DNA from: an uncultured Pseudomonadota bacterium
GTDB taxonomy: Bacteria > Desulfobacterota > Syntrophorhabdia > Syntrophorhabdales > Syntrophorhabdaceae
Length of the DNA stretch: 32,439 nt
Assembly: GCA_937862865.1 (NCBI GenBank)
Contig: CALMFJ010000092.1
Span: 1-32,439, forward strand
Reading direction: 5' to 3'
The notes beneath the pieces were generated by a model. That model ran no database searches. It was given only the letters and a program-made list of their open reading frames with translations, and was not told where the DNA came from. The stretch's first letter is position 1; each line of letters opens with the position of its first letter. Position numbers and translations under genes: made by a program. Shown here one piece after another: positions 17,718 to 27,123 of this stretch.

Positions 17718-17981
17718 CTATCTGTACCTTACCGCGAAGGCCACGGTGATGAGGGCGGTGATGAGGGCGATGGTGTTGGCGGCCACTATGGGGAGGGATG
17801 CGAGGAGAAAACCGTAGACGGTCCAGAGCACCGAGCCGACGGCGACCATGAGGGGCATGAAGAGGGAGACGTCTTTTGCTTCCTTAAGCCGCCATATGCG
17901 GATTATCTGCGGCAGGAGGGAGAATGTTGTGAAGCAGGCGGCTGCATATCCGACAATATCGGCCCGCGTAATGAGATCTAT
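17718..17981 (-). CDS. SemiSWEET (MtN3/PQ-loop) transporter, apparent ATA start
   Basis: This gene is missing from the ORF track because its frame has no ATG, GTG or TTG before the homology. Translation from the ATA at 17981-17979 gives 87 aa: DLITRADIVGYAAACFTTF, then LLPQ (the PQ motif of helix 1, residues 22-25), KEAKDVSLFMPLMV, SVLWTVYGFLLAS and AANTIALITAL. This is the full three-helix SemiSWEET architecture of a dimeric inner-membrane sugar transporter. The ATA overlaps the TAG of the ADP-ribosylglycohydrolase gene as ATAG, mirroring the usual ATGA coupling, and a G-run lies upstream. ATT three codons later is an alternative rare start. The gene could instead have lost its start, or a base may be miscalled. 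Family call is firm; start is not. Confidence 0.8.
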   Translation of the reverse strand: MDLITRADIVGYAAACFTTFSLLPQIIRIWRLKEAKDVSLFMPLMVAVGSVLWTVYGFLLASLPIVAANTIALITALITVAFAVRYR

Positions 17982-18958
17982 GGCGATACCCCCCCATTCT
18001 TTTCAAGAAAGGCCCGGAAGAGCCTGCCGATGTCGTCTCTGCGCGCGATCCGGCCGAGCCACTCTTCGGGGATCGCGTTTGGTCCGTAGCACGAGCCGGC
18101 GAGGCCTCCCGTCACGATCGCCGTCGTATCGGTGTCATGCCCGAGATTAACGGCCTTTAACACGGCGTCGCGGTACGAAGAGGTGTTCATGAGGCACCAG
18201 AGGGCGGCCTCGAGCGTATGAATCACATATCCGTCCGACTCGATCTTCCTTTCGGGGTACGACCCGATGTCGCCGCCGAGGACCCGGTTGAAATGAGGCA
18301 TCTCACCAATAAAGGGCGGCGCGCTGTAGATGCCCTTTGCCTTTTCGACGGTCGACAGGTATGCGTCATAAGGCGGCTTTCCCTCAAGCAATGCCCGGTA
18401 CATGAGGCAATACATCCCGCATGACATGAGTGAGCGGGGATGTCCGTGGGTGATGGATGAGGCGCGGTGCGCATGATGGATAACGTCATCGTCTGTCATC
18501 GCCAGACAGTGGATCGCAATGGGAAGGATCCGCATAAGCGAGCCGTTGCCGTTGTTCATCTCCTCCGTGCTTCCCGCCAGTTCTGCGGCGATGCCCTGCT
18601 CGATGTGGCGTATCGCCTGGCTCGTCCCGAACCCGACGTCAAAGACGATGCCGTAAGGCGTCCAATGGGCCTCCCTGAGCCACCGGATGAAGATTTTGCC
18701 TATGCGTTCCGTATCGAACCCGTCAAGCAGGCCCTCTATCGTGCACAGCATCAGGGACGAATCGTCGGACCAGCTCCCGGCAGGGAGATCGAACGTCCCG
18801 TGCCCGCGCATATCGGTGCCCGGGTCTCTCTCCCGTTCGTGCCTGCCCTTGAACTCGACAGGGACCCCCAGCGCATCGCCCACGACGGCTCCCCACAAAC
18901 TGCCTGCAATCCTTTTTTCCACCTGGCCCCCAAGAAAGGACTTTGTTCCAAGTTCCAT
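17978..18958 (-). CDS. ADP-ribosylglycohydrolase family protein (DraG-like)
   Basis: The 326-aa protein shows the signature of the all-alpha, dinuclear-Mg ADP-ribosylhydrolases: SLWGAVVGDALGVPVEF at the N-terminus, the metal-binding SWSDDSSLML, NNGNGSLMRILP, SITHGHPRS, and the C-terminal metal site GHDTDTTAIVTGGLAG. Such enzymes remove ADP-ribose from arginine or other groups on proteins, or act on small ADP-ribosylated molecules; DraG reactivates nitrogenase reductase. No DraT-type transferase is visible, so a nitrogenase link is unsupported. A GTG about 12 codons downstream of the annotated ATG is an alternative start close to the conserved region. Its stop overlaps the SemiSWEET start, so the two are probably co-translated. 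Confidence 0.85.
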   Translation of the reverse strand: MELGTKSFLGGQVEKRIAGSLWGAVVGDALGVPVEFKGRHERERDPGTDMRGHGTFDLPAGSWSDDSSLMLCTIEGLLDGFDTERIGKIFIRWLREAHWTPYGIVFDVGFGTSQAIRHIEQGIAAELAGSTEEMNNGNGSLMRILPIAIHCLAMTDDDVIHHAHRASSITHGHPRSLMSCGMYCLMYRALLEGKPPYDAYLSTVEKAKGIYSAPPFIGEMPHFNRVLGGDIGSYPERKIESDGYVIHTLEAALWCLMNTSSYRDAVLKAVNLGHDTDTTAIVTGGLAGSCYGPNAIPEEWLGRIARRDDIGRLFRAFLEKNGGVSP

Positions 18959-20423: not shown

Positions 20424-21443
20424 TTACGGTTTTTCACAAATGTTCCTGCACGCCTCGACGGATTCGAACGGGACGGTCCCTCCGCACCCGCCGTAAAGAA
20501 AAGACATGCATTTCTTCGTAAGCTTGTTGTAATACCCCCTGTAGAAAAGGGCCTTGCAGTTGCCGTCCTTTGGCTCGAGGTCACAGGGCGCTTTGATATT
20601 GACCTCTTGGCCCCTTGTTTTCTTCAATTGCTCATTGAGGCGAACGGCGGCTTCCCGGTTTCCCTTGAATACCGCGATATCAATATCTTCCCGGGAAACG
20701 GCGGCGCCTCTTTTGATCAAGGTCTCGATGATGGCGACATTGCCGGAGACCGCGGCCGCGCGGAGGAGGTCTTTCGAGTCTGCTCCTCTGGAAAGGAGAA
20801 TGTTAAAGATATCATCGTATCCTGCCATCGCCGCATTGTAGAGGGACATGTCGTCGAACGGCGCTCCTTTGTCGAGGAGGATGCGGGCGGATGCCTGGTG
20901 CCCCCTTCGGATCGATTCATTGAGCAATCCGGCATTACCGGGGTCTCCCACTTTGAAGCCGTGCCCGATGAAGAAATTGACGAGGCCGGCGGCTGCCTTC
21001 CGGTCGTCCATATAGACAATTGCAACAAGCGGCGTGTCACCGTCCTTGTTCCGGGCATTGACGTCAGCACCTTTCTCGATGAGGTAACGGGCGACAGCGT
21101 ACCGGCGGTAGCTCATCGCCTCATGGAGCGGGGTTCGCCCGTCTTTGTCCCGGGCATTGATATCGGCCCCTCTTTTTACGAGAAGGGCGGTTATGTCCTG
21201 ATATCCCCGGTTCGCGGCGTAATGGAGAAGGGCCGCCCCGCTCTTGGACCGGGCATTGACATCTTTCTGCGCATTGACGTATTCCATGAATTTTGCGGGG
21301 TCGTCGGCAGCCTTCTCTGCCTCAGACCTGTTATCCGCGAAAAACTGCGCGATGAGGTCGCCCCCCGGCTCCTTCGACAAAGCCCCGGACGATAGAGAAA
21401 CAACAGCGACGAACATCAACAACCCGATGAACCATTTTCTCAT
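20424..21443 (-). CDS. Secreted ankyrin-repeat protein with C-terminal Kunitz/BPTI domain
   Basis: The 339-aa protein starts with a clear signal peptide (MRKWFIGLLMFVAVVSLSSG). Residues about 60-275 contain six or seven ankyrin repeats (GAALLHYAANRGYQDI, GRTPLHEAMSYRRYAV, and later weaker ones). The last 53 residues are a Kunitz domain: Cys287, 296, 312, 320, 332 and 336 give spacings 9-16-8-12-4, against 9-16-8-13-4 in BPTI, with conserved YYN and FLYGGCGG. The P1 position is Lys297 followed by Ala, as in BPTI, which predicts inhibition of trypsin-like proteases. The parts are individually known, but this combination in a bacterium is unusual. GGGAGAA precedes the ATG. It is followed at 34 bp by an unknown gene. 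Confidence 0.85.
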   Translation of the reverse strand: MRKWFIGLLMFVAVVSLSSGALSKEPGGDLIAQFFADNRSEAEKAADDPAKFMEYVNAQKDVNARSKSGAALLHYAANRGYQDITALLVKRGADINARDKDGRTPLHEAMSYRRYAVARYLIEKGADVNARNKDGDTPLVAIVYMDDRKAAAGLVNFFIGHGFKVGDPGNAGLLNESIRRGHQASARILLDKGAPFDDMSLYNAAMAGYDDIFNILLSRGADSKDLLRAAAVSGNVAIIETLIKRGAAVSREDIDIAVFKGNREAAVRLNEQLKKTRGQEVNIKAPCDLEPKDGNCKALFYRGYYNKLTKKCMSFLYGGCGGTVPFESVEACRNICEKP

Positions 21444-26046: not shown

Positions 26047-26370
26047 ATGATGAAGGAACATCCGGCAAAGATCGTGCTGGCAGCTGTGATGGTTTTGATG
26101 CTGGTAATTCCCCTGATCGCAAACGCCCGCAGCCGCGGTGACGATGGAGTGGGGAACACGGGCGCCTTCGGCTTCGATCGAGGCGGAGGGCCGATGGGGG
26201 TGCCGGCGATCAACAGCCGGCAGGGCATCCAGGACGGCTCCATCGGGAACCCCGACCAGACCGGCGTTGTGGTCCCGAATTTTTCGGGCTCGAGCTCCGG
26301 CCCCGGCCTCGACAACGGGAACAGGCGCTCGAGGTTAAGGGACGAGTATAAGGGGGACGACCGTAAATAA
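26047..26370 (+). CDS. Small exported Gly/Arg-rich protein, 3' end supplied by a repeat
   Basis: The 107-aa product has a GAGGAGAG ribosome site and two adjacent ATGs (26047 or 26050). Residues 8-27 (KIVLAAVMVLMLVIPLIANA) form a signal peptide; the mature region is glycine-rich and low in complexity (GFDRGGGPMGVPA, SGSSSGPGLDNGNRR). The final codons GDDRK and the stop fall inside the 207-bp repeat that begins at 26353, so the original C-terminus was probably replaced by the repeat. Function unknown. Confidence 0.65.
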   Translation: MMKEHPAKIVLAAVMVLMLVIPLIANARSRGDDGVGNTGAFGFDRGGGPMGVPAINSRQGIQDGSIGNPDQTGVVVPNFSGSSSGPGLDNGNRRSRLRDEYKGDDRK

Positions 26371-26559
26371 ATAAATAGCTCAGAACGCGTACCCTTTTTC
26401 CCGGGCGACCCTTTCCCCCCGTTCCACCGCATACCCTGCGGCGGGCGGGGTCATGCCGAGAAATGACGCAACGCCCGCGATGGAATGCCCTCCGTAACGG
26501 ACGGCAAAGTAGCAGAAGAGGCTCCGGGCCTCCACCGGCAGGGCGCGGCGGCCCCCGTT
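26353..26559. repeat. 207-bp exact direct repeat, copy 1 (transposase end fragment)
   Basis: Bases 26353-26559 are identical, as far as I can read, to 26917-27123, offset 564 bp. The copy starts exactly at the outer terminal repeat of the RAYT element and stops abruptly within the transposase coding sequence. Confidence 0.9.
26380..26559 (-). pseudogene. 3' fragment of the RAYT transposase gene
   Basis: The last 59 or so codons (NGGRRALPVEARSLFC to EKGYAF) are the same as in the intact transposase at 26944. Upstream of 26559 the track ORF continues into unrelated sequence. There is no start or catalytic domain, so it is a dead fragment. Confidence 0.9.
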
Positions 26560-26897: not shown

Positions 26898-26916
26898 TTT
26901 GTTTTAAGAATAAAAA

Positions 26917-27123
26917 GGGGACGACCGTAAATAAATAAATAGCTCAGAACGCGTACCCTTTTTCCCGGGCGACCCTTTCCCCCCGTTCCACCGCATACCC
27001 TGCGGCGGGCGGGGTCATGCCGAGAAATGACGCAACGCCCGCGATGGAATGCCCTCCGTAACGGACGGCAAAGTAGCAGAAGAGGCTCCGGGCCTCCACC
27101 GGCAGGGCGCGGCGGCCCCCGTT
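26917..27123. repeat. 207-bp exact direct repeat, copy 2
   Basis: This is the end of the intact RAYT element, covering its terminal repeat and the last 60 or so codons of the transposase. Copy 1 is at 26353-26559. Confidence 0.9.

Follow-up and report, generated by a model that had tools for sequence, protein, structure and literature searches.

We found that the minus-strand frame at positions 17718-17981 of the window, i.e. the whole stretch of 32,439 nucleotides that was analyzed (contig C92; the draft assembly has 172 contigs totalling 2.64 Mb and is 96.5% complete), is probably a functional SemiSWEET gene that has lost its ancestral start codon and whose translation, which is probably weak, would begin at a near-cognate codon, most likely at the ATA in 17981-17979 (rough probability 57%). 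This figure and the graded wording used for the alternatives are judgements made with rough base rates in mind; well-studied bacteria are known to have a few near-cognate starts each, and by our estimate errors at starts in draft sequences are probably a little less common than these. The support rests on one assembly, and the find came from reading many windows, a procedure that tends to bring up unusual cases of all sorts. This instance is new but belongs to a known kind, rare ATA starts having already been described.

The frame comprises 87 codons from the ATA and is closed by a TAG. Its product matched the Pfam PQ-loop family (PF04193; E 6.8e-13, score 48.6 versus a cut-off of 22) and the NCBIfam profile SemiSWEET_2 (NF037968; 84.8 bits versus a curated cut-off of 80), and solved SemiSWEETs were matched by the protein sequence (4rng, E 1.5e-15). 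An AlphaFold2 model (pLDDT 84.8) contains three helices, spanning residues 3-30, 41-60, and 63-86. When this model was used in a fold search, the best eleven matches were all SemiSWEETs or SWEETs, headed by 4rng with a weak overlay (TM 0.56, E 2.6e-3). Residues conserved in the family are kept, namely P24 and Q25 of the PQ motif, W53 and N69 of the pocket, as well as Y56 and G57 in TM2. Profiles, the modelled three-helix architecture, and conserved residues together identify the encoded protein as a SemiSWEET, and its predicted function is that of a sugar transporter. The coding sequence lies far outside what chance would give, being present in all 12 genomes of the genus at 62-72% identity. 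The first-pass annotation had described an intact 87-aa SemiSWEET with a PQ motif and three helices at exactly these coordinates, and had held that standard ORF calling misses it; our analysis agrees on the protein and on its position, and the gene was indeed missed.

The same annotation had noted the absence of a standard start codon and an ATA that overlaps an upstream stop codon as ATAG, and both are borne out by the sequence. Upstream, the frame is closed by an in-frame TGA (18005-18003, minus strand as for all features of this region). From position 18002 it reads AAA GAA TGG GGG GGT ATC GCC ATA GAT CTC ATT ACG CGG GCC GAT, and no ATG, GTG, or TTG occurs in frame between the TGA and the ATG at 17858-17856 (codon 48, counted from 0). 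This first standard codon follows helix 1 and the PQ motif, inside the protein, and a whole SemiSWEET cannot be made from there. The ATA at 17981-17979 shares two bases with the TAG (17980-17978) of the preceding gene. The presence of an ATA is in itself not beyond chance, as ATC, ATA, ATT, and ACG all occur within the 14 codons that precede the conserved core. Starts at CTC (17975-17973), ATC, or ACG are less likely on codon or spacing grounds, and a second candidate is the ATT at 17972-17970.

The preceding gene (17978-18958) encodes, according to its ORF and profile match, a 326-aa protein of the ADP-ribosylglycohydrolase family. Its last codons contain a run of seven G (G7; 17995-17989) that resembles a Shine-Dalgarno (SD) sequence and lies 5-7 nt from the ATA and 14-16 nt from the ATT. 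The run is thus properly spaced for the ATA, and the predicted duplex energy is -10.9 kcal/mol, calculated with an assumed standard anti-SD; a 16S gene was sought in this assembly to check the anti-SD and was not found. A match this strong occurs at ~1% of random positions and at 4 of the 776 ATA triplets in the window, and among the 16 gene starts of the window that were tested, only 2 have a stronger value. However, the run is not specific evidence for the ATA, because an SD-like run is shared with the GTG site of a sister species. Searches for terminators and promoters around the junction gave nothing above chance, and RNA structure at the junction was weaker than in shuffled sequences (z +1.16). 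A plausible mechanism is that ribosomes ending translation of the glycohydrolase would stop at the TAG lying over the ATA, that the G-run 7 nt upstream would act as the SD within the last glycohydrolase codons, and that fMet-tRNA would pair with the AUA. We infer that initiation occurs, at the ATA rather than at the ATT, coupled to the upstream gene and with low yield.

The gene for initiation factor IF3 (infC) provides a control for such initiation in this lineage. In all 10 genomes of the genus in which infC was found, AGGAGGTGA is followed by 5 nt and then ATA, and the stop codon of the threonyl-tRNA synthetase (ThrRS) gene falls inside the infC SD. Across the family, the start position carries ATA in 24 of the 25 genomes read and ATT in the remaining one (L097). 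In two genomes (L079, L085) a GTG lies inside the infC SD out of frame, leaving no standard infC start there. Thus infC appears, from these sequences, to start at ATA in the family of this genome. The conservation of this ATA, together with the two genomes lacking any standard start, makes it very likely on comparative grounds that AUA initiation occurs in the lineage. The infC loci, L071 (G000:C10:8301-8510) and L069-L098, lie directly behind the ThrRS stop.

To trace the fate of the SemiSWEET start, orthologous start codons were aligned, a check that the first-pass annotation had proposed. Near relatives of the genome, with which it groups, are Syntrophorhabdus MAGs. Among the 12 genus genomes the other 11 all have standard starts, and this locus is the only one without such a start among 30 SemiSWEET loci read. 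Nine members carry an ATG two codons before a conserved Asp. The SemiSWEET protein tree was without resolution, and relationships were therefore taken from a ThrRS+IF3 tree, in which G009 and G004 are the sisters of this genome (support 100/99). In these sisters the start lies five codons before the Asp and is GTG (G009) or TTG (G004), and the aligned codon here is CTC. The GTG of G009 is likely to be its start; it is not certain, because another in-frame ATG lies upstream, twelve codons before the Asp. As both sisters have GTG or TTG where this genome has CTC, the alignment indicates that the ancestral GTG/TTG start has been lost in this lineage. The event was hence the loss of GTG/TTG and not a change from ATG to ATA, and no near-cognate start is conserved in the relatives, given that the standard starts of the sisters lie at another codon. 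The proposal of a rare start used by translational coupling nevertheless stands as the best-supported reading, although the ATG that the annotation allowed for at this position calls for correction and the ATT was not named there.

The surroundings of the gene are similar in the sisters, where gene order is kept and SemiSWEET likewise abuts the end of the glycohydrolase. In G009 and G004 this enzyme is mostly gone, and its last 22-23 codons, including the SD region and the stop, are left before SemiSWEET (tblastn E 6e-8 and 5e-6 for the two remnants; L041:5034-5260 and L040:3685-3855). The remnant in L040 is readable as a short ATG-started leader frame. At six loci of other genus members (L002, L003, L005, L006, L008, L010) glycohydrolase and SemiSWEET are separated by a gene that, as judged by eye, looks like one for a HepT-like (MNT/HepT) toxin-antitoxin protein; this gene overlaps or abuts the SemiSWEET start.

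The alternative that survives best, with a small but real chance of being correct, is that the gene is an incipient pseudogene, in which the start was lost recently, translation hardly occurs or does not occur at all, and the coding sequence has so far escaped decay. The change of the ancestral codon to CTC fits this explanation, and decay next to the gene is common in the clade, as both sisters have lost most of the adjacent glycohydrolase. In contrast, no stop or frameshift was found within the SemiSWEET frame of this assembly, and dN/dS, branch rates, and invariant positions gave no sign of relaxed constraint in the coding sequence. Pairwise comparison with G004 (NG86) yielded a dN of 0.17 versus a dS of 1.06. 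On the branch to this genome, rates at codon positions 1+2 versus position 3 were 0.054/0.656 by likelihood with fixed topology, and a three-species estimate gave 0.088/0.541 (bootstrap range of the 0.088: 0.042-0.142), i.e. positions 1+2 evolved 0.08-0.16 times as fast as position 3, similarly to the sister; the gene is short and its third positions are near saturation, and these rates therefore bound decay loosely. Only 1 of 40 positions invariant in the genus is changed here, no more than in other members. Decay could account for no more than about a quarter of the branch, even on the assumption that every change at first and second positions is neutral. Signs of this kind would be missing after a very recent loss, and the pseudogene that the first-pass annotation had considered thus keeps a small probability while gaining no support from the coding sequence.

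An error in sequencing, assembly, or consensus that masks a standard start is unlikely, even though the sequence comes from a single draft assembly of many contigs. One base at 17970 would turn the ATT into ATG, and a length error in G7 would also shift the frames. Yet the ancestral codon differs from the present one by two bases and not one, and the remaining genes of the window are intact. G7 also has the expected length. The glycohydrolase stop is in the same place in the sisters (TAG here, TAA in G009 and G004), its distance to the conserved Asp is 17 bases here and in G004 and 16 in G009, and the end of the enzyme aligns without gaps to that of a sister (KNGGVSP*/KNGGGSR*); this agreement makes a length error in G7 unlikely. 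An ATG at 17979-17981, which had been named as a possible true reading, is likewise improbable, because ATGG would convert the upstream TAG, kept as TAA in both sisters, to TGG and extend the enzyme frame by 25 codons.

We consider it still less probable that a functional SemiSWEET starts at the ATT rather than at the ATA. The ATT lies one codon past the start of the sisters and would keep helix 1 whole, and E. coli infC, which starts at ATT, provides a precedent (PMC5472188). However, the SD-like run is distant from this codon, and infC of this family uses ATA, not ATT, as its near-cognate start. Finally, a -1 ribosomal frameshift or slippage in G7, which lies within 18002-17981, the only stretch where such a shift works, could fuse the glycohydrolase to SemiSWEET, but this has a negligible likelihood, since the sisters lack G7 and have separate frames, RNA structure is not unusual, and the fused cytosolic enzyme would be placed on the wrong side of the membrane: the end of TM3 in SemiSWEETs is intracellular (PMC4309421) and three helices would place the N terminus outside, with which the charges in RIWRLKEAK and RYR agree.

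Initiation at the ATA of SemiSWEET, our preferred reading, can be compared with known systems. In S. aureus, for which four near-cognate starts are known, AUA is the start codon of infC, ccpN, and citZ; the sites of the latter two gave about 10-30% of AUG in reporters, and extended SDs direct initiation of infC and ccpN (PMC13009471). These genes share with SemiSWEET the near-cognate AUA and, for infC and ccpN, a strong SD. Unlike in S. aureus, the ATA of SemiSWEET overlaps an upstream stop, and the S. aureus genes were ribosome-profiled and two of them reporter-tested, whereas SemiSWEET is known from sequence alone. In E. coli, RpoS was kept at an up to 5-fold lower level when the rpoS ATG was changed to ATA (PMC12864459), while AUA may give only up to 1% of AUG according to Hecht et al. 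2017, as cited there. A reconstruction covering 68,906 ancestral starts lists no switch to AUA (PMC5622118), although annotation bias hides such switches. The infC genes of E. coli (ATT), Streptomyces (ATC), and this family (ATA, behind the threonyl-tRNA synthetase gene) resemble SemiSWEET in having a near-cognate start near the end of an upstream gene. In contrast, the near-cognate start of infC is conserved and the E. coli gene is subject to autoregulation by IF3, whereas the ATA of SemiSWEET is found in one species only. The non-standard start of Streptomyces sigR was overlooked by annotation as in the present case, but it is a GTC, is regulatory, is repressed by IF3, and was shown experimentally (PMC5472188). 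The other SemiSWEETs of the genus belong to the same family and largely to the same neighbourhood, but have standard starts.

If the preferred reading is true, a transporter joins the short list of genes with an AUA start, and a gene can survive the loss of its start codon when it lies beside an upstream stop and an SD. It would also be a concrete example of an intact gene dropped by annotation programs. The infC control marks the family as one in which AUA initiation is testable. A rather doubtful extension is that the family uses AUA as a normal regulatory device, with infC and SemiSWEET both starting at AUA beside an upstream stop, the transporter tied both to the level of IF3 and to glycohydrolase termination, and more AUA genes hidden in these genomes.

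Two further features of the window were observed. The gene at 20424-21443 (minus strand) encodes a bacterial protein that combines ankyrin repeats with a Kunitz/BPTI domain at its C terminus (Pfam E 3e-11), and relatives of this protein occur at the same locus in other members of the genus. Positions 26344-26559 and 26908-27123 form a 216-bp direct repeat with 99% identity, the duplicated segment being the 3' end of a gene for an IS200-like transposase.
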